Below the pieces are notes generated by a model. That model saw only the letters and a program-made list of their open reading frames with translations. It was not told where the DNA came from and did no database searches. Positions 451 to 60,146 of a stretch of 64,000 nucleotides of DNA are shown piece by piece. How positions within the stretch are numbered: position 1 is the first letter of the stretch; every line of letters starts with the position of its first letter. The DNA is from Anaerolineae bacterium. Lineage in GTDB: Bacteria; Chloroflexota; Anaerolineae; Aggregatilineales; Aggregatilineaceae. The stretch spans positions 186,001-250,000 of the forward strand of contig JAHDLB010000002.1 of assembly GCA_018432315.1 (NCBI GenBank), written 5' to 3'. The position numbers and the translations under genes were made by a program.

Positions 451-3400
451 CTATTGCGGATCGAACGCGCAGGCCCCCGCCCCGACGGCACACGTCGCCA
501 GGATGTCGTCGTCGTGCCGGACCTCGAACATCGCCGCCGGATCGTCGCTGATCCAGAATTCGCGGCGAGGGGCGATCTCGCGCCAGGCGTGGCGTGTGCC
601 GCAGGCCGATGGACGCGCGATCGTCGTGTTCGTCAGCCCGGTCGTCCACACCTGGAAGCAGTCGCCGGGCGGCAGGGCGCCGGGTGGCTGGCTGCCGCCG
701 CTCCACCGGTCGGACTCGAAGACCAGCCGCTCGCCATCCGCCCCGGCCTGGATGAACGCCAGCCCGCTCACGTCCACCGGCTGGTCCGAGCGGTTGATCA
801 GGGCCAGCGTCTGGTCATCGTAGACCAGCAGCACCGCGCCGGACAGCGCATTCGCGGCGGCGGTCGGCACCGGGGTGACCGGCGCGGGTTCCACTTCAGA
901 TGCCAGCGCCAGCGCGCACGTCCCGCCGCCGAGCGGGCACGTCGCCAGCAGGTCCGTCCCCCGGCGCACCTCGAAGACCGCATCCGGATCGCCGCCAAAC
1001 CAGAACCAGCGCAGCGGCCCGACCTCGCTCCAGGCGTGGCGCAGCGCGCACGTCCCCGGCTGCAGGCCCGCGGTCGACGCCAGGCCCGATCGCCAGATCT
1101 GGAAGCAGTCGCCGGGCGGCAGGGCGTTGGGCGGCTGGCTGCCGCCGCTCCACTGGTTGGACGAAAAGCTCAGGCGGCGGCCATTCTCATCCGTCCGGGC
1201 GAAGGTCAGCCCACTCACGTCGACCGGCTGGTTCGAGCGGTTGACCAGCGCGAACGCGTCGCCGTCATAGACCAGGATCACCGGCGCTTCGTCCTCGCCA
1301 GCTTCGCCGGCTTCATCCGTGGGCGCGGGCGTTGCGGATGGCGCGGCGGTGGCCGTGGCGGTCGGCGGCGGGGTTGGCGTCCGGGATGGGGTGGCCGTGG
1401 CGGCGGGCGGCGGGGTTTCCGTCACCTCGACCGCCGGGCGCAGCGTGGCCGTGGCCGCCGGTTCGGTCGGGCTGAGCGCCGCTGCTGCCGCGCCCGCCGT
1501 CTCGCCGGGCTGCAGGCTCACCAGGCATTCGCCCGCCCCCACGACGCACGTCGCCAGGATGTCGTCCGCGCGGCGCACCTCGAACGTCGCCGCCGGGTCG
1601 TCATTGATCCAGAACCAACGCGGCGGCGCGGCTTCGCGCCAGGCGTGGCGCGTGCCACAGGCATCCGGGCGCGGCAGGCTGGTCGTCGTGATGACGGTCG
1701 TCCACACCTGGAAGCAGTCGCCGGGCGGCAGGGTGTTGGGCGGCTGGCTGCCGCCGCCCCAATCGTCGGACTCGAAGGTCAGCCGCTCGCCGCTTGCCGC
1801 CTGGATGAACGTCAACCCGCTGACGTCGATCACCTCGCCGGAGCGGTTGATCAGGGCCAGCGTCTGGGCGTCGTAGGTCAGGATCACCGGCGCGCGATCC
1901 GGGCCGGGGACCGCCGTCGCGGTGGGCGGGGCGCTGGTCGGCGGATCGGTGGGCGCGGGCGTGTCCGTCGGCGCGACCGTGGGAGACGCGGTGGGCGTGC
2001 GCGTGGCGCTGGGCGGCTGGCTCGTCGGAGCCGCCGTTGCCGGGAGCGCTGCGGGCCCGGTCGCGGTCGCCGCCAGGGCCGCCGGTTCCGTTGGCGCGGG
2101 CGTCTCGGATGGGGTCGCGGTGGGCGTGGCGGACGGTTGATCCGTGGCGGTCGGCAGATCGGTCGGGACGCCGGTTGGCTCTTCGGTGGGCGGGAGCGCC
2201 GTGGGGCTGGCCGTCGCCAGCGGCGTGATCGTCGGCGCGGGGGTGGGATAGGGCGTGGGCGAATTCACCATCGCCACCGCCTGCGCTTCCTCGTCGCACA
2301 GCGGCTCGACGCGGTACTGCTCGCGCTCCTCGCAGGTGATGTCGCGCACGTAGCGGTTGGCATACGTCCAGTCGATCAGCGTGTGCAGCGACGAGTCGAC
2401 GCGCCACACGGCCACGCGCGTATCCGCCGAGCCGGACACCACCGCGCCGCCGTCGGGACGGAAGGCCACGCTGTACACCGCCCCGCCATGGCCGACGTAA
2501 CGGCGCACCTGCTGGCCGGTCGCCAGGTCCCACAGGATCACGTCCCCGGCGCTCGTGCCGGAGATCGCCCGCGCCCCGTCCGGGCTGAAGGCCGCGCCGA
2601 ACACCGGCGCCCCGTGCGCGAAGGTGGTGCGCGGCTGGCCGGTGGCGGCGTCCCACAGGATCAGCGCGTTGTCCGCCCCGCCGGAGAGGATCGCGTCGCC
2701 GTCCGGGCTGAAGGCCGCCGTCAGGACGGTGTCCGCGTGGCCGGCGAAGCGGCGCTGCTCGTCGCCGGTCGCCACGTCCCACAGCACGAGCGACGCATCG
2801 ACCAGCCCGGCCAGCACGCCCTGCCCGTCGCGGCTGAACGTCACCGCCCGCACCGACCCCGCCCCGGTGTCGATGCGCCGGACGATTTCGCCGGTCGCCA
2901 CGTCCCAGATCAACACGGCGCCGTCGTCCCCACCGGAGGCCGCGTACTGCCCATCCGGGCTGAAGGCCACCGCCCGCACCCGGTCCGCGTGGCCCTCGAA
3001 GCGGCGGACGATCACGCCCGTCGCGACGTCCCACAGGATCAGCGTCGCGTCATACGAGCCGGAGAGCACCATCCCGCCGTCCGGGCTGAAGGCCACCGCC
3101 CGCACCCAGTCCTGGTGGCCCTCCAACTGGCGCAGCAGCGCGCCGGTTTCCAGGTCCCACACGATCAGCGTGCCGTCGCCGGAGGCGCTCACCGCCGCCC
3201 GGCCATCGGGGCTTGTCGCGACCGCGTACACGGTGTCGGCGTGCCCGCTCAGGCGGCGCATCTCGGAGCCGCGATGCAGCTCCCACAGGCGCAGCGTCAT
3301 GTCCGCCGAGCCGGAGAGCACGTCGCGGCCATCGGGGCTGAAGGCGGCGCTGGTCACGGCGTCGGTATGGCCCAGCAGGCGCAGCGCCTCCGCCCCGCGC

Positions 3401-6400
3401 TCGATGTTCCACAGGCGCACGCTGCCATCACGCGAAGCACTGAGCGCCTGGGCGCCGTCCGCGCTGAAGGCGACGCTCGTCACACCGTCGGTGTGGCCCT
3501 CGAAACGCCGGACCTCCAGGCCGGACTCCAGGTCCCACAGGCGCAGCGTGCCGTCCTGGGCGCCGGAGAGGGCGCGGGTCCCGTCCGGGCTGAAGGCGGC
3601 GCTCAGCACGGCGTCGGTGTGGCCCGCCAGCGTCAGCAGTTCCGCGCCGGATTCGAGGTTCCACAGGCGCAGGGTGCCGTCCTGCGCGCCAGAGAGGGCG
3701 CGGGTCCCGTCAGGGCTGAAGGCGGCGCTCAGCACGGCGTCGGTATGGCCCGCCAGCGCCAGCAGTTCGTCGCCGGACTCCAGGTCCCACAGGCGCAGCG
3801 TGCCGTCCCGCGAGGCGGAGAGCGCGCGCCTACCGTCCGGGCTGACGGCGACGCCGGTCACCGCGTCGGTGTGCCCCGCCAGCCGGGCCAGGACGTCGCC
3901 GGTTTCCAGGTCCCACACGATCAGCGTGCCATCCCGCGAGGCGGACACGACCGTCGCGCCGTCCGGCGCGAACTGGACGCCGGTCACCGCGTCGGTGTGG
4001 CCTTCCAGCCGGCCCACCATCTGCCGGGTCTCGACGTTCCACACGATCACGGCCCCATCCGCGCCCGCCGAGGCGGCGCGCCGGCCATCGGGGCTGAACG
4101 CCACCTGGAACACCGCGCCGCTGTGGCCCTCGAACCGGGCGTGCGTCCCCGGCGCGTCGGCCACGTTGAACAGGGCGCGGGCGGCCTGCTCGGGCGGGGC
4201 TTCCTGCTCGGCGGCCTGCAAGGCCAGCAGGATCGCCAGGTCGGTGTCGCGGTTGGTCAGCGCCAATTCGGCGCTGGCGGCCAGCAGCAGGCTCGAATTC
4301 AGCCGCGCGATGCCCGCCTGCTGCTCGGCGATCCCGGCCTGCGTCTGGGCGATTGCCACCTGAGTCTCGGCCAGGTCCTTGTTGAACTCCGAGGTTGCCA
4401 GCGCGTCCTGGCGCTCGGCGCTCTGGCTGAAGGCGAACAGCGACAGCCCCACCGCGCCCACCAGGAACACCACCAGCGTCGCGACCAGCATCCGCAGCCG
4501 GTTGGCCGCGCGCCGCTCGGACGCAATCGACCGGCGCTCCAGGGTGATCGAGCGCTGTTCCAGCTCGATCTCGCGGCGCAGCCGTTCCTGCTCGGCCTGG
4601 GTGCGAGCCTCCTGCTCGGCCATGCTGGCGACGAGGTAATCCCATTCCTCCTGGGCGAATTCGAGATCGGTGGCCGCGATCCACTCCTCGTACTGGGCGA
4701 GGCGCGACCCCGTCACCAGGAAGCCGGGGTCCTTGCCCGCGTTGATCCACTCCGCCGCCGCGACCATCAGCCGCCGGTGGAGCCGCAGGTCTTCGCGGCT
4801 GGTGTCGAGCCAGTCGCGCAGCCGCTGCCACTCGCGGATCAGCGCCTCGTGCGCCACCTCGACGGTCGGGCCGTGCGTCACCGGGTCGCGGTCGAAGGTC
4901 AGCAGGCGGTACTGGCTGAAGACCTGCATCACGGCGTCCATCGCCGGGCCGGCCACGGCCAGCGATTCCAGCTCGGCCAGCCGGACGCGCCGCCGGGTGT
5001 CTTCGGTGCCCTCGCCGGGCGTCACCAGCCGCAGGAACAACTGGCGCGTCGCCTCCTGGCGCGTCTCGTCCATCTCCGCGTAGAGTTCCTCGGCGCGGCG
5101 GGCCAGCGCGCCGGATACGCCGCCCACCGCCCGGTAGGCGTTCAACGTCAGGGCGCGGCCCTCGCGGCGCTCGAACAGCTCGGTGAGCGTGTATTGCAGC
5201 AGCGGCAGCGCGCCCGGCTGCTCGCTCACGTCGGCGATGATCGCAGCGACGAGGTCGGTGCCCAGCACCAGCCCGGCCCGCTCCGCCGGGTTGACGATCG
5301 CCTGCTCCAGCTCGTCCGGCGACAGCGGCAGCACGATCTCGGTGCGCTCGCGCATCACGCGGCCAAACTCGGCGTAGCGCAGCGGGCGGTCGTAGAAATC
5401 GGCGCGCAGCGTGACGATCACGCGCAGGCGGCTGTGCGGATCGCCGAGGGCGACCATCAGGCTGTCGAGGAAGTGGAACCGGGCCGATTCGTCCTCGACC
5501 AGCGTGAACAACTCCTCGAACTGGTCGATGACCAGCACCAGCTCGACGCCGGGCCGGTCCGGCAGGATGCGCTTGACGGCGCGCATCAGACCGCGCTCGT
5601 CCTGCCGGAGCTGGCTGAGCAGTTCCGGGATCGGCGTATCCGTCGCGCGCAGCAGCGCGGACTCGAGTTCTTCCAGCGGGTAGGCGCTGGGCAGCATCTC
5701 GATCACCACCCAGCTCTCGGACCCCGGCAGGGCGCCCTTGCGCAGCGCCGGGATGACGCCCGCCTTCACCACGCTCGATTTGCCGCTGCCGCTGGGGCCG
5801 ACCACCGCCAGAAACCGCGCCATCGCGTCCGGCTCGCCCAGGCGCCGGACCAGTTGGTCGATGAGCGCGTCGCGGCCAAAGAAGTTGTCGGCGTCTTCTT
5901 CCTGGAAGGCGCGCAGACCCTTGTACGGGTTGCGCAGCGGCTGGGCCGTTTCTTCGGGCGCGGGCAGCGTTTCGGCTTCCGGCTCCACCACCGGCGGCGC
6001 GGCGGGCGGCGCGACGACCTGCCGGGCCTCAGCCGCCGGGAAGTCCGCGGCGGGCGGCAGCGTGTCCTGGTTATCTTTGGCGTGCTGGCGCAGGAATTCG
6101 TGCATCTCATAGCGCCCGTCCGAGGTGCGCCGCAGCAGCGACTTGTCGACCAGGTCGAGCAGCGTGGGCAGCGAGACGTTCGCCACGCGGCGGGCCGTCT
6201 CGTGGCGGAAGCCGCCGGGCAGCGCCGAGAGTCGCTTGAGCACCTCCTGCTCGCTGGCAGAGAGCATGTTCCACGACTGGTCGAAGACGGCGCGCAGGCT
6301 GCGGTGCCGCTCGGGGACGTCCTGCAGCGAGGTCACCAGGAAGTCGAGGTTGCTCTCGATCTCGCTGACGATTTCGCCCGGCGCGAGCATCTGCACCCAG

Positions 6401-54775: not shown

Positions 54776-56671
54776 TCAGCTCGACAGGCCGCTGAGCAGC
54801 ACGCGCAAAAACACCAGCCCCGCCAGCCCCAGGCCGACCAGGCTCAACGTGTGCTCGCCCGCGCTGTACAGGATCGCGCTGGTGACCGCCAGCCCGGTGA
54901 ACAGCACCGCCCCGGCCAGCCGGTGAACCGCCGCGCTCAACTGGCGCGCCTCGTGCTGGGACTCCGGCGTGGGGGCGACGCGAACCGTGATCTCGCCCCG
55001 GTCGGCGCGGCGCAGCACGCTGTCGGCCAGCGCGGGAAGCTGAGCCGTGCGCAGGGCCACGTCCAGCCCGGTTTCCAGCGCGGACTCGACGTGCTCGGCG
55101 GTCAGCAGGGCGCGCAGCGTCTCCGGGCGCAGCAGGTCGCGCGGCCTGAAGCCGAACCCCATCACCGCCGGGAGCGCGTCCCCGTCCTCGGCGACCAGCG
55201 TCATCACGAAGGGCAGCACCTCGCGCCAGGGATCGAAATCCGGATCGAGGCCGGTGCACATCCCGAACAGGATGCCCACCGCGCGCATCAGGTAGAGGAA
55301 GTCCTGCGGGACCTGGAACGGCAGCGAAAACAGCAGGTCGCTGAACTCGCGGCCCAGCGACGTGATCTCCGAGAACGACAGCCCGCTGATCTGGGCCATG
55401 TTCATGCCCCACACCCGGTCGAAGGCGGCGCGGCTGGCCTGCTCGATCCGGTCCAGGTCCGCGCCGGGCAGCAGGATCCCCAGCCGCTGGTACGACTCGA
55501 CCAGCCGGCGCGCGTCGCGCGTGGTCAGCGCGATGAGCGTCTCGCGCAGCCCTTCCGCGATCTCCGGCGTCAGGTGGCCGGCCATCCCGAAGTCGACGAA
55601 GATCAGGTAGAACGGGCGGCCCAGCAGCGGCGTCCCGTTGGCGTGATGTCCGACGGGCGCGGCGGTGTCCGGCGGCAGCGGGTAGACGAACAGGTTGCCG
55701 GGGTGAGGGTCGGCGTGGAAGAAGCGCTTGACGAACACCATCCACAGGTAGGTGGCGATCAACCGGCGAGCGACGTCGCGCCGGGCGATGCCCGCCGCCG
55801 CGATCGCGGCGTAGTCGGTGATCTTGATCGCCGTCACGTCTTCGAGCGTGACGACGCGCGGCGTGCTCAGCTCGCGGTACAGCCGGGGAATGTAGATCCC
55901 GCCGTCGCGGGCGAACAACTCGGCGAACGCCTCGGCGTGATCGGCTTCCTGGCAGTAGTTCAGCTCCTCCCACAACACGGCGCTGAACTCGTCCAGCAGG
56001 GCCGGGACGTTGGCGCGGCGGCGGATCAGCGGGATGCGCATCAGCCAGCGGGCCACCACTTCCAGCGCCTTGAGGTCGGTGTGCACCAGCGTGCCGATGC
56101 CGGGCCGCTGCACCTTCACGACCACGCGCGTGCCGTCCGGCAGCCGGGCGCGGTGGGCCTGCCCCAGCGAAGCCGCCGCGGTCGGCGCCGGGTCGAGCCA
56201 GTCGAAACGCTCGTCGACCGGGCCAAGCTCCTCTTCCAGCCGCGCGCGGATCACGTCGAACGGCACGCCGGGGACCTCATCCTGCAGGCTCGCCAGCTCC
56301 TGGATCACTTCCGGCGGCAGGATGTCCATGCGGCTGGAGATGAACTGGCCGAGCTTGATCATCACGCCGCCCATCGCCACGGCCATCCCGCGAAAGTCGC
56401 GCGCCCAGCGACGCATCCGGCCCGAGCGCCCGCGCCCGACCGTGCCCTCGCCCAGCACGCGCCGCAGGACCAGCTCCCAGGCGAAGATGCGCGCCATCAG
56501 CCATCCGGCAAACCACAGCGTGCGCCGGTAGCGCCACCAGTCGATTCGATAGCGACCGGCCCCGGCGGCGAGTCCGGCGGCGGGTTGGGTGTCCGCCGGG
56601 TTGTCGGGTGGCGCGGCCCGGTCAGTCACTCGCGAAGTGGATGCGAAGCCGGGATTGCTCGAATCGGGCAT
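54776..56671 (-). CDS. UbiB/ABC1-type atypical kinase
   Basis: 631 residues. The family motifs are all present: KLGQ (KxGQ, in MIKLGQFISSR), the Ala-rich loop AAASLGQAHRA in place of the protein-kinase Gly loop, the catalytic Lys in VVVKVQRPG, the Glu/Asp of ELNYCQEADHAEAF, HADPHPGN, and DFGMAG. Two hydrophobic helices at the end anchor it in the membrane. UbiB proteins are ATPases linked to quinone or isoprenoid lipid handling. The ATG at 56671 overlaps the ArsA gene by 50 bases; a GTG at 56629 (8-base overlap) is an equally possible start. No quinone-synthesis gene is adjacent. Confidence 0.9.
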   Translation of the reverse strand: MPDSSNPGFASTSRVTDRAAPPDNPADTQPAAGLAAGAGRYRIDWWRYRRTLWFAGWLMARIFAWELVLRRVLGEGTVGRGRSGRMRRWARDFRGMAVAMGGVMIKLGQFISSRMDILPPEVIQELASLQDEVPGVPFDVIRARLEEELGPVDERFDWLDPAPTAAASLGQAHRARLPDGTRVVVKVQRPGIGTLVHTDLKALEVVARWLMRIPLIRRRANVPALLDEFSAVLWEELNYCQEADHAEAFAELFARDGGIYIPRLYRELSTPRVVTLEDVTAIKITDYAAIAAAGIARRDVARRLIATYLWMVFVKRFFHADPHPGNLFVYPLPPDTAAPVGHHANGTPLLGRPFYLIFVDFGMAGHLTPEIAEGLRETLIALTTRDARRLVESYQRLGILLPGADLDRIEQASRAAFDRVWGMNMAQISGLSFSEITSLGREFSDLLFSLPFQVPQDFLYLMRAVGILFGMCTGLDPDFDPWREVLPFVMTLVAEDGDALPAVMGFGFRPRDLLRPETLRALLTAEHVESALETGLDVALRTAQLPALADSVLRRADRGEITVRVAPTPESQHEARQLSAAVHRLAGAVLFTGLAVTSAILYSAGEHTLSLVGLGLAGLVFLRVLLSGLSS

Positions 56672-57794
56672 TTTTCACGTCCAGCTTCCACAGCGCGTAG
56701 GGTAAGACGATGTTGCGCCGGTACGGCCCCACCCGCAGCGTCAGTTCGTCGGCGGACCGGTAGAGGTCCAGGTCGCTTTTTTCGGCGAACGGCAGCGGCA
56801 CTTCCAGAATGTAGCCGCCGTTCTCGTCCGGCGTGATGCGGTGCGTCTGCTCGTGGGCGAGCACCGACGCCGGGTTGGTGTCGCCGTAGAGCGCATCGGC
56901 CAGCCGCCGCAGCCGGTCGAAGCCGCCGATCTCCTCGCTGAACAGCGGCGCGCTGAGCATGGGCAGCTCGCCGAACGCCTCGCGGATGAACGCGATATTC
57001 TCGGACTGGCTCTCTTTCCAGGCGGCGAAGTAGGGGTCGGTGACTTCGTCCGGGTACACGCGGTTGACCAGCACGGCGTCCACCGCGTAGCCGTACAGGT
57101 TCAGGTAGGTGTAGGTGCGCTGCGTCTCTTTGATGACCATGCGCTCCGGGTTGACCACCAGGCGCAGGCTGCTTCTGTCCGGATCGGTCAGCAGGTCGCG
57201 CACGCGGTCGAGCGTGTTGAACAGCCCGTCGATGCTTTCGAGTGTGTCGTCGTCCGGCAGGTCCGCGCCGATCAGCGGCTTGGAGATCGGGCGCAGCAGC
57301 CGCCCGCTGGTGCCGCGCATCAGCGACGTGATCCGCTGGAACCACCAGCGCGTGGTGTCGGGCAGGCTCAGCAGGCGCAGCGTCTCGGCGGTGGGCGCGG
57401 CGTCGACGATCAGGACGTCGTGCTCGTCGTCCTCGACATACTTGTTGATCCACAACAGGTGGGCGCCCTCGTCCAGCCCCGGCAGGATCGTCACTTCTTC
57501 GGCCACGATGTCGTTGACGTGGCGCGGATTGAGCACGTTGAGCATGTATTTCTGGATGCGGCCCCAGTACTTGTCCATCGAGTAACGCGCGTCGACTTCC
57601 TGGGCCCACAGGTTATCCCGGATCAGGATCGGCTCCGGCCCGATCTTCACGTCCAGCGAATCGGCCAGCGAGTGGGCCGTATCGGTGGAAATGACGATCG
57701 TGCGCAGCCCCATCTCGGCGCAGCGCAGCGCGGTTGCGGCGGAAATGCTGGTCTTCCCGACGCCGCCTTTGCCGGTATGCACAATGATTCGCAT
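56622..57794 (-). CDS. ArsA/Get3-family ATPase
   Basis: 390 residues. Deviant Walker A GKGGVGKTS (8-16), switch I STDTAHSLADSLD and switch II VDAAPTAETLRLLSLP define the ArsA/Get3 family of dimeric ATPases that move metalloids or insert tail-anchored proteins. The metal-binding Cys residues of the arsenite pump are not seen, so membrane-protein targeting or another role is more likely. The C-terminal third ends with a beta-rich alpha-crystallin-like tail (YILEVPLPFAEKSDLDLYRS), common in bacterial relatives. It is the first gene of a pair that overlaps the UbiB gene. Confidence 0.88.
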   Translation of the reverse strand: MRIIVHTGKGGVGKTSISAATALRCAEMGLRTIVISTDTAHSLADSLDVKIGPEPILIRDNLWAQEVDARYSMDKYWGRIQKYMLNVLNPRHVNDIVAEEVTILPGLDEGAHLLWINKYVEDDEHDVLIVDAAPTAETLRLLSLPDTTRWWFQRITSLMRGTSGRLLRPISKPLIGADLPDDDTLESIDGLFNTLDRVRDLLTDPDRSSLRLVVNPERMVIKETQRTYTYLNLYGYAVDAVLVNRVYPDEVTDPYFAAWKESQSENIAFIREAFGELPMLSAPLFSEEIGGFDRLRRLADALYGDTNPASVLAHEQTHRITPDENGGYILEVPLPFAEKSDLDLYRSADELTLRVGPYRRNIVLPYALWKLDVKNARFEQSRLRIHFASD

Positions 57795-57955
57795 CGAATT
57801 CGCTACCTTCTACTCTGTGGATACTCCCTACAAGCATTACGTACCGGGGCGACAAACGATGCGCCGGCGACGTGTTTCCAATACAGATTTTACACACATC
57901 AGGCGGCGGTTCCCCCTGTCGAGGGGCGGCGGCGCGGCGACGGCGCCCCGCCCGC

Positions 57956-58963
57956 TCAGCCGATCAGGCCGCGGTCGTAGATCAGCCACATGCCCAGGGC
58001 GTACCCGATCAGGATCAGCAGCGCGTCGATTTCGATGATCAGGCGGCGCGTGCCGCCCCAGGTGAGGTTGCGCGCCAGGTTGCCGATCAGCGCCAGCGTG
58101 ATCAGCAGCAGGCCGATGATCCCCGCCAGCACCATGTCCGACGACACAGCCTCCAGAAAGCGCCCGTCGGTGTAGAACAGGTCGGTGAGGCCCAGCGCGA
58201 AAATGTTGAACACGTTGCTGCCGAACAGGTTGCCCGCCGCCAGGTCGTAGGCGCCGATGCGCGCCGCCGAAATAGTGGTCACGACTTCGGGCAGCGAGGT
58301 GACGACCGCCACCAGCGCGATCCCGACGAAGCCGGTCGTCAGGCCGGTTTCCTCGGCGATCTGCGTCGAGCTGCTGACCAGCAGCGGCGTGATGGCGATC
58401 AGCGCCGCCGCCGCGACGGCGAAACCGATCCCCGCGTAGGCCAGGCTGGGCGTGCCTTCGGGAATTTCCGGGGCGGGGATGGGTTGTTCCGGCGCGCCGG
58501 GGCGGTTGCCGCCAAACAGGATGCGCGTCCCGCCGATGTACACTACGATCAGCACCAGGCTGTCCAGGCCCAGCCAGCCGATCTTCACCGTGACCTGGGC
58601 GAGGATGAAGAACACGGCCAGCCCGGTCAGCAGCACGCCGACGCTGGCGCTGAGAGTGTGCATCATCGTGATCCGGCGCAGGATGTGCAGCCGGTGATAG
58701 AGCAGGTCCAATAGGGCGAGCAGGAACATGTTGAACATGGTGCTGCCGAAGATATTGCCCACCGTCAGGTTGGGCACGTTCTGGTCGATGGCGTTGATCG
58801 CGGTGAGCAGCTCCGGCAGCGACGTCGCACCGGCCAGCAGCAGCGTGCCCACGAACATCCCGCCCAGCTTGGTGCGCAGCGCGATGACGTCGCCGTACTG
58901 GGCCAGCTTGGTCGCGGCGAAAACGATCAGGGCCGCGCTGGCGACGAATTCGATCCAGATCAT
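57956..58963 (-). CDS. Sodium/calcium exchanger-like (CaCA) membrane protein
   Basis: 335 residues with about ten helices and the internal duplication of the family: GATSLPELLTAINAI with GNIFGSTMFN, and VVTSLPEVVTTISAARIGA with GNLFGSNVFN. The Glu of each SLPE is part of the ion site of CaCA exchangers. It should swap a cation (Ca2+ or another) for Na+, K+ or H+ across the membrane. The start ATG overlaps the stop of the PII-like gene (ATGA), so its expression is coupled to that protein. Confidence 0.88.
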   Translation of the reverse strand: MIWIEFVASAALIVFAATKLAQYGDVIALRTKLGGMFVGTLLLAGATSLPELLTAINAIDQNVPNLTVGNIFGSTMFNMFLLALLDLLYHRLHILRRITMMHTLSASVGVLLTGLAVFFILAQVTVKIGWLGLDSLVLIVVYIGGTRILFGGNRPGAPEQPIPAPEIPEGTPSLAYAGIGFAVAAAALIAITPLLVSSSTQIAEETGLTTGFVGIALVAVVTSLPEVVTTISAARIGAYDLAAGNLFGSNVFNIFALGLTDLFYTDGRFLEAVSSDMVLAGIIGLLLITLALIGNLARNLTWGGTRRLIIEIDALLILIGYALGMWLIYDRGLIG

Positions 58964-59331
58964 GAAAGGTCGTCTCCTGGGTTGCGCAGATGATCCGGTA
59001 CGCCTTTCACGAACGGGAGTTCCCACGCGGTGAACACGCCGGTATTGGGCTGCGACAGGTCACCGACGATCGACTCGACGGCCTCCAGGCAGTTCTGGAC
59101 GGTCGCGGCGTCGGGCACGATCACGAACAGGGTATAGTGGCCCACTTCCACGTTTTGAGCGCCCAGGCCCATGCCGAACGCATACCGCGCGCCGACGCGT
59201 TTCGGCTCGCGCCGCCGGTACAGGCCCGACGACTCGATGATGGTCACGCCGCTGACGCCGAGCGCGCGCCACGCGTCCAGCACCTCGTCGAGCCGGTCGG
59301 GGTTGTCCAACACAAGCATCACCATCTGCAT
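58960..59331 (-). CDS. PII-like signalling protein, coupled to the exchanger
   Basis: 123 residues. Ferredoxin-like PII fold: first strand MVMLVLDNPDRLDEVLDAW, then GVSGVTIIESSGL, a basic T-loop-like stretch (YRRREPKRVGARYAFGMG), VGHYTLFVIVPD and the C-terminal AVESIVGDLSQPNTGVFTAW, matching the PII-like family of trimers that bind nucleotides or other small ligands. The uridylylation Tyr of GlnB is not at the expected place. GGAAAGGA precedes the ATG, and TATACT (59379-59374) may be its -10 box. Gene order and the 4-base overlap with the exchanger suggest it senses a ligand for that transporter. Confidence 0.75.
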   Translation of the reverse strand: MQMVMLVLDNPDRLDEVLDAWRALGVSGVTIIESSGLYRRREPKRVGARYAFGMGLGAQNVEVGHYTLFVIVPDAATVQNCLEAVESIVGDLSQPNTGVFTAWELPFVKGVPDHLRNPGDDLS

Positions 59332-59486
59332 GACAGCGTCCTTTCCCTTCCACGCGTGCACAGGTACGCCGCGAGTATAACCGAGAGCCGGTCCGGCGCC
59401 CACGCAGCCGGGCCGCCATTCGCCTGTTGCGAAGCGGAGTGGGAATGTGAGGAGGGAATGGGGCGAGGGCGCGCGCCCTCGCCGGG

Positions 59487-60146
59487 TCACTTCACCAGGG
59501 CCGCGGCCAGCCCATCGCCCACCGGGATCACCGTGCTGAACAGGCCGGCATGGGTGGCGAGCGCTTCCAGAAACGCGCGCGTGGCGTTGGCGGTGGGGTT
59601 GTCGTCGTGCAGGTGCCCCTCGCGGAAGGCGTTGTGCGCGGTGATCAGCCCGCCGGGGCGCACGTGCGCCAGCGACCACGCCAGGTAATCGCTGTTGGCT
59701 TCCTTGTTGGCGTCGATGAAGACCATGTCGAACGGCTCGGCCTGTCCCAGCCGCTCCAGGCTGGCGGCGGCGTCGCCCTCCACGATCTCGACCCGGTCCG
59801 AAACCCCGGCCAGCGCGAAGTGCTGGCGCGCGATCTGGGCGTGGCGCGGGTCCAGTTCCAGCGTGACGAGCCTGCCGCCGGGTGGCAGGCCGCGGGCCAG
59901 CCAGATCCCACTATACCCGGCCAGCGTCCCGATCTCCAGAATGCGGCGCGCGCCGATGATCGCGGCCAGGAATTGCAGCATCTGGCCCTCTTCGGGCCGG
60001 ATCTGGATCTCCGGCAGGCCGTGCGCGACCGTGTTGGTGCGGACGGTTTGCAGGATGCGGTCTTCCGGCGCGAACCACTGGCGGATGCTCTGCGTCAGGC
60101 GGCGCTGGACATCGGGCGCGAAGGTGAGAATACGGTCATCCAGCAT
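59487..60146 (-). CDS. SAM-dependent O-methyltransferase (caffeoyl-CoA OMT-like)
   Basis: 219 residues. Methyltransferase family 3: the SAM motif ILEIGTLAGYSGIWLARGL, acidic residue in LVTLELDP, and the metal-binding pattern MVFIDANKEANSDYL, in which the Asp binds Mg2+. These enzymes methylate catechols or caffeoyl-like phenols; bacterial members often act on unknown small molecules. The ATG at 60146 has GAGGAG seven bases upstream, which fixes the start; the frame is open far upstream only by chance. Confidence 0.9.
   Translation of the reverse strand: MLDDRILTFAPDVQRRLTQSIRQWFAPEDRILQTVRTNTVAHGLPEIQIRPEEGQMLQFLAAIIGARRILEIGTLAGYSGIWLARGLPPGGRLVTLELDPRHAQIARQHFALAGVSDRVEIVEGDAAASLERLGQAEPFDMVFIDANKEANSDYLAWSLAHVRPGGLITAHNAFREGHLHDDNPTANATRAFLEALATHAGLFSTVIPVGDGLAAALVK

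Follow-up and report, generated by a model that had tools for sequence, protein, structure and literature searches.

A PII-like protein gene is conserved beside a CaCA-type cation exchanger gene in Chloroflexota

PII proteins linked to transporters are already known. In GlnK-AmtB, the gene of the PII-family protein adjoins that of the transporter it controls. In cyanobacteria, the gene of the PII-like protein SbtB shares an operon with that of a secondary transporter, the bicarbonate transporter SbtA; the available portions of PMC8352866 and PMC10710835 describe T-loop docking and nucleotide-dependent inhibition, and the former places SbtB on SbtA with trimer symmetry. In both GlnK-AmtB and SbtB-SbtA, the PII-type trimer rests on a trimeric transporter with its T-loop inserted (PMC8352866, PMC10710835). 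A PII-type gene is likewise found with a cation efflux antiporter in the proteobacterial metal efflux system CzcABC, beside which PII-NG is encoded; sensing was proposed for PII-NG, which belongs to a proteobacterial GlnB/GlnK-derived clade as described in the accessible text of PMC7726332. The RCK/KTN domain of KefC is also a cytosolic nucleotide-binding regulator (AMP, GSH), acting on a CPA2 antiporter, according to the excerpted part of PMC11150392. Its fold is Rossmann-type and unrelated to that of PII-like proteins, and it is fused to the antiporter. To our knowledge, no bacterial CaCA exchanger has been established to be under the control of a separate soluble protein. In titles and abstract openings of the open-licence literature, no description of a PII-like/CaCA or PII-like/CPA2 pair was found among the matches listed. 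Here we describe a PII-like/CaCA pair that is real and new, and for which we infer a regulatory function.

The DNA analyzed, hereafter the window, is a stretch of 64,000 nucleotides from an Anaerolineae bacterium. On its minus strand, the gene of a PII-like protein of 123 amino acids (58960..59331) is followed by that of a CaCA-type (Na+/Ca2+ or H+/Ca2+ exchanger-like) antiporter of 335 amino acids (57956..58963). Both reading frames share an ATGA overlap at 58960..58963: the PII-like frame ends with GAC CTT TCA TGA and the exchanger starts with ATG ATC TGG, and this 4-base overlap recurs in 12 of the 27 distinct pairs from relatives. A preliminary description of this locus had placed the PII-like gene first, overlapping the exchanger gene as ATGA, which is correct to the base on the minus strand; its gene-family names were also borne out, PII-like by the fold and the relatives, and CaCA by PF01699 and the fold. 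On the same strand, the pair is flanked by an O-methyltransferase gene upstream (155 bases off) and an ArsA-type ATPase gene downstream (161 bases off). The PII-like gene and the exchanger gene are one tight two-gene unit. No Rfam family was detected in the window at gathering thresholds, and a scan of 57700-59700 for consensus promoters and terminators found nothing. Farther along, at 54776-57794, the ArsA-type ATPase, which has a C-terminal HSP20-like domain, and then an ABC1/UbiB-type kinase are encoded on one strand; relatives of both adjoin the pair in two other loci (L038 and L039).

The window PII-like protein scored 17.5 bits against the Pfam P-II model (E 0.0053), under the 25-bit cut-off, which sets it apart from GlnK. 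Its relatives passed this cut-off (CPA2-linked L059, 35.6 bits; L069, 32.5 bits; the own-genome paralog, 35.2 bits), and the exchanger-linked and CPA2-linked profiles aligned with each other over 120 columns with an E of 4.9e-30. The AlphaFold model of the window protein (pLDDT 82) contains the ferredoxin-like beta-alpha-beta-beta-alpha-beta core of PII, and each of the 50 Foldseek matches listed for it was a PII or PII-like protein, with a best E of 1.2e-6. In the VIA comparison, the model aligned with 2v5h_J over 96 residues (Z 12.6, rmsd 4.7) and with 1hwu_F over 85 (Z 12.5, rmsd 2.5). PII membership is firm because homologues pass the cut-off, the profiles align and the model has the fold; a spurious PII call was ruled out via the intermediate sequences and the model. 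The SbtB structure matched with a Z of 11.6, tied with canonical PII. The window protein differs from SbtB in having a CaCA partner rather than SbtA, and its identity to the SbtB chains listed is 10-12%; the C-terminal CGPxGC motif of some SbtB members is absent from it. The model also matched PotN of lactobacilli (structure 7o4x) with a Z of 11.8. PotN is linked to a polyamine ABC transporter, and an ABC importer as partner would be a difference from the window pair if that link holds. In the available part of a dye-labelling paper, PotN appears with the PotA subunit of this transporter (PMC9692440).

Three PII-type genes were found in the genome that carries the window, each beside its own transporter: a canonical PII gene after amtB (L120), a PII-like gene downstream of a CPA2 antiporter gene (L002), and the window pair. 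Because the separate canonical PII adjoins amtB, a standard nitrogen PII was ruled out as the identity of the window protein. GlnK-AmtB also involves another transporter superfamily. At L002 (1384-3014, contig C35), the CPA2 antiporter has 415 amino acids and the PII-like gene begins 11 bases downstream.

The exchanger matched Na_Ca_ex (PF01699) in two stretches with 109.9 bits (cut-off 24.9) and NCX_Mj by sequence with an E of 2.6e-10. The fold of its AlphaFold model (pLDDT 83) matches CAX_Af, NCX_Mj, YfkE, VCX1 and NCLX. Both alpha-repeats are present as in NCX_Mj, YfkE and CAX_Af, the first as ATSLPE ... GNIFGSTMFN (58730..58828, minus strand) and the second as TSLPE ... GNLFGSNVFN (58205..58300, minus strand). 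T47, S48, E51, G73, S74 and N78 of the first repeat and T222, S223, E226, S249 and N253 of the second are invariant in 23 linked exchangers and at least 80% conserved in 19 sister exchangers. We take the T, S and E residues of TSLPE and the GS...N residues of the repeats to bind the ions; in the alignment, N253 stands at the position of a D in NCX_Mj. The score against TIGR00367 was 98.7 bits, below the cut-off of 179.65; therefore, we treated the exchanger as a distinct CaCA subfamily, which differs from NCX_Mj, YfkE and CAX_Af in having a dedicated PII-like partner gene.

We then assessed the conservation of the pair. A match to the window PII-like protein was present in 35 of 61 genomes (its own and 60 relatives). 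At all ten places with 48-67% identity in the 60 relative genomes (L003-L012), an exchanger gene lies directly downstream on the same strand, with the 4-base overlap in nine. Scanning a genome-contig collection of 84,980 species matched 68 stretches, 34 of which were confirmed, all from Chloroflexota as far as this one pattern scan, which could miss distant members elsewhere, can tell. The 34 loci comprise 22 with an exchanger downstream (nine of them repeating loci already found among the 60 relatives), one remnant (L068), nine with a CPA2 antiporter upstream, and L066 and L069. In L068, the start of the PII-like gene is joined to the end of the exchanger gene (4001-4506), through either a deletion or an assembly break. 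Taken together, the fetched loci number 93, counted without L001, L032-L035 and L070, which duplicate the window region or contain the other exchanger of its own genome, and provide 82 distinct related PII-like proteins besides that of the window. Twenty-seven are exchanger-linked (26 intact and the remnant), 51 are CPA2-linked, and four have neither partner: the CBS fusion L066, L069 with no transporter, and L031 and L080 at contig ends. Every linked gene (78 of 78) is on the same strand as its partner, and the gene order is fixed, CPA2 then PII-like and PII-like then exchanger. The PII-like and exchanger genes are spaced by -4 to +16 bases in 23 of the 27 pairs. Thermanaerothrix daxensis (L054) and Ornatilinea apprima (L055) are among the relatives with the pair. 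On contig C49 of genome G414 (1237-4001, covered in part by L074), the pair occurs in tandem, as PII-like/exchanger/PII-like/exchanger.

Meanwhile, the surroundings of the pair vary. Across 22 sources (19 exchanger-linked loci, the window, L059 and L066), gene families outside the pair are common to three at most. Nine such three-locus families are common to L038, L039 and the window, and five others fall among L045, L046, L050 and L052 or among L049, L053 and L054; some three-locus families are antisense shadow frames. The wider gene order of the window is common to L038 and L039 only, among the 22 sources. The pair is therefore kept in differing contexts, and sister exchangers have no PII-like gene beside them, as described below; because of both, chance adjacency was ruled out. 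The pair is strongly conserved and its adjacency is far beyond chance.

As a control, exchangers were located in 400 evenly sampled Chloroflexota genomes, in which the PII-like profile matched 44 places in 37 genomes (E 1e-6). The exchanger profile was built from linked exchangers, and the subfamily was delimited post hoc, at the score gap between 359 and 245 bits; so defined, 9 of its 9 places adjoin a PII-like place. Eight of these are full-length with at least 359 bits, and the ninth is a gene in G196 that is split at a contig end and was counted in the subfamily as its first half (193 bits) ends there beside the PII-like place. The next 37 full-length exchanger places (132-245 bits) are all in genomes without a PII-like match, which rules out a PII-like partner as a general CaCA trait. 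Around sister exchangers, tblastn with two PII-like queries found no PII-like match in 20 fetched loci at E 0.01, a threshold that a very diverged neighbor could escape. Exchanger matches below 132 bits are mostly partial; some are in genomes that bear a PII-like match (for example G018, G065, G115, G130, G164, G180, G196 and G342), and by coordinates none among the matches listed lies beside a PII-like place. As for the 44 PII-like places, 30 were fetched as loci, five more were matched to an exchanger by coordinates and one is L002; the remaining eight are outside the partner count, and canonical PII may account for the weakest among them. The genome that carries the window has a second exchanger, on contig C35 and approximately 20 kb from the CPA2-linked PII-like gene, with no PII-like gene beside it. 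In L116 (G149, contig C25), two CaCA genes are adjacent in tandem, and no PII-like gene is present.

The commonest partner of the PII-like family is a Kef-like CPA2 antiporter, encoded directly upstream in 51 of the 82 distinct relatives. In 49 of the 51, the spacing from the CPA2 gene to the PII-like gene is -38 to +57 bases; the CPA2 neighbors in L013 and L062 are shortened frames at gaps of 280 and 379 bases. CPA2 partners are 396-426 amino acids long in 49 of 51. The RCK domain was absent from both CPA2 partners scanned (n = 2); therefore, the PII-like protein may take the place of RCK. In L066 (3980-5737), the PII-like domain is fused to two CBS domains, and a CitMHS/ArsB-type transporter gene begins 3 bases after the fusion and runs off the contig; its best NCBIfam model was MamN, below cut-off. 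This is a third transporter type for the family. A plasmid-collection search with the CPA2-linked L059 gave no match.

Gene linkage alone would also fit co-expression without contact, in which case the PII-like protein could regulate another target, such as an enzyme or a transcription factor, with the operon setting stoichiometry or timing. PII proteins have several soluble targets, and in L069 the PII-like gene adjoins ftsZ, and the sequence examined has no transporter gene flanking it. However, 79 of the 80 informative distinct relatives adjoin a predicted ion transporter, of one of three unrelated superfamilies, and other gene families recur in so few of the 22 sources that we consider another target unlikely. 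The PII-like proteins are probably a branch usually encoded beside ion antiporters, which they would switch on or off. The preliminary description had made its reading depend on conservation of the pair in relatives, and the pair is found in 10 of 10 close relatives, 27 of 82 members of the wider family and 9 of 9 sampled exchangers of the subfamily. Its reading of a PII-like/CaCA pair holds for both families and the conserved linkage; as a picture of the family it was too narrow, as CPA2 partners are commoner (51 versus 27), and the canonical ATP-site motif is apparently missing, judging from a weak alignment.

This alignment relates the CPA2-linked profile to GlnZ (domain score 16.4 bits), with the B-loop GDGK opposite DTGV and, equally weakly, the C-loop RxR opposite g-l-r. 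The GDGK and RxR residues of GlnZ hold the ATP phosphates in canonical PII. Carried over to the window through the family columns, NTGV stands at GDGK, and G110 and P112 stand at RxR. The putative B-loop position, PNTGV (59035..59049, minus strand), which was placed by this weak alignment and by conservation, is thus without the GDGK of canonical PII. At position 112, 28% of CPA2-linked rows have R. As far as so weak an alignment can indicate, the window protein appears to have lost the lysine of GDGK and the arginines of the C-loop, which GlnK has, and classical ATP/2-oxoglutarate sensing is therefore unlikely; the signal is probably another one. The loops lining the PII cleft have family-conserved residues of their own (P95, T97, G98 and G110). 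Across 47 family rows, the columns conserved to at least 90% are six glycines, A20, W21, T30 and E33.

The apparent loss of the ATP-site residues could be read in other ways. The protein might sense metal directly, as CutA does and PII-NG is proposed to do, with Ca2+ or another divalent ion in the nucleotide cleft; this would agree with the linkage to ion transporters of three superfamilies, and PII-NG beside CzcABC, for which the accessible text of PMC7726332 proposes metal sensing, is a precedent. We regard this as improbable, since no conserved acidic or histidine/cysteine cluster is found across the 47 family rows and the commoner partners are predicted monovalent-cation antiporters. PII-NG is set apart by its description, and CzcABC is another transporter type; the partners of the PII-like family are CaCA, CPA2 and one ArsB/CitMHS type, with no CzcABC. 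The apparently lost residues and the regular pairing with the exchanger subfamily would also suit a subunit that serves the structure or assembly of the exchanger constitutively, without responding to a ligand. The conserved cleft-loop residues look instead like those of a retained but altered site, and the transporter-bound PII-family proteins covered in the available part of a review are conditional regulators (PMC10710835), so that a purely structural role seems very unlikely.

We therefore return to a ligand-responsive regulator, in which the T-loop would be the point of contact. In the model, residues 37-62 or thereabouts (59146..59223, minus strand) have no regular structure and lie between strands 30-34 and 65-72, with block pLDDT values of 69, 51 and 48. 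This basic, low-confidence and apparently flexible stretch is as a T-loop would look. Y50 stands opposite the tyrosine of GAEY in GlnZ (the uridylylation site in canonical PII), and only 57% of the 21 exchanger-linked rows have Y there. No other 26-residue stretch separates exchanger-linked from CPA2-linked proteins as strongly as the T-loop: windows of this length that start at residues 35-42 are the top eight of 85 by divergence, and the mean Jensen-Shannon divergence is 0.54 for residues 37-62 and 0.32 for the rest of 2-112. Eleven single columns reach a divergence of at least 0.80, three in the T-loop (R40, G47 and F52) and eight outside it (L14, G64, Y66, C81, A102, F107, K109 and P112). 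A class-specific T-loop is what partner specificity would look like at the sequence level, although a fast-evolving loop could also give this pattern without contact.

On balance, we find it rather likely that the pair consists of a transporter and a cytosolic regulator dedicated to it, and that the T-loop of the regulator docks on the exchanger and gates it. By analogy with SbtB-SbtA, which serves as the model for the window pair, the PII-like protein would form the usual PII trimer, and a small cytosolic signal, perhaps an adenyl or cyclic nucleotide, would bind in the cleft between subunits. The basic T-loop may then dock on the cytoplasmic side of the exchanger, itself probably a trimer, and restrain or gate Ca2+ efflux; GlnK-AmtB and SbtB-SbtA suggest inhibition as the direction. 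YfkE and NCLX, both CaCA, are trimers, and VCX1 and AfCAX, also CaCA, were crystallized as dimers, as given in the accessible parts of PMC4982074 and PMC12571890 for the former two and of PMC4982074 for the latter. CPA2 antiporters such as KefC are dimers in the portion of PMC11150392 available; therefore, a 3:3 plug cannot hold throughout the PII-like family. With this dimeric relative, the CPA2 partners would test the trimer rule directly. We counted in favor of docking and gating the conserved linkage, the control, the several partner types, both folds, the amtB-PII pair of the same genome, the CaCA trimers and the T-loop divergence. Against it, we counted the dimers VCX1, AfCAX and KefC, the fast-evolving loop and the possibility of co-expression noted above, the family member without a transporter (L069) and the apparent loss of ligand residues.

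The history of the pair was considered in a quick tree of one canonical PII and 81 proteins of the family, that of the window among them, built without the remnant L068 and the truncated L031 and with 39 of its 79 inner branches drawn open. In this tree, exchanger-linked proteins cluster with one another amid the CPA2-linked ones. The exchanger label amounts to one change against the CPA2 label, and to two once every other row is included, since the CBS fusion L066 is placed next to the exchanger group; the place of L066, which has a long branch, is unsure. A constraint holding the 27 exchanger-linked proteins together was not rejected (p-AU 0.816). The tree fits a single partner switch from CPA2 to CaCA, as far as these sequences can suggest. 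A broader proposal, which we judge evenly balanced, is that this distinct PII-like clade would be a portable regulatory subunit of antiporters that moved among CPA2, CaCA and ArsB/CitMHS transporters, replaced fused domains such as RCK, changed its T-loop with each partner and responds to a ligand other than ATP/2-oxoglutarate, which would make the window pair the first PII-controlled Ca2+ exchanger.

The transported ion is presumably Ca2+. If so, and if the PII-like protein is a subunit acting on the CaCA exchanger, the pair would tie bacterial Ca2+ homeostasis to a metabolic or second-messenger signal. A P-type ATPase gene lies beside the exchanger gene in 4 of the 20 sister loci without a PII-like gene (L101, L103, L110 and L115). 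The best NCBIfam model for these ATPases, all four partial and below the full-length cut-off, was the Ca2+ ATPase of the PMR1 type, and such neighbors hint at Ca2+ as the substrate of the wider exchanger group.
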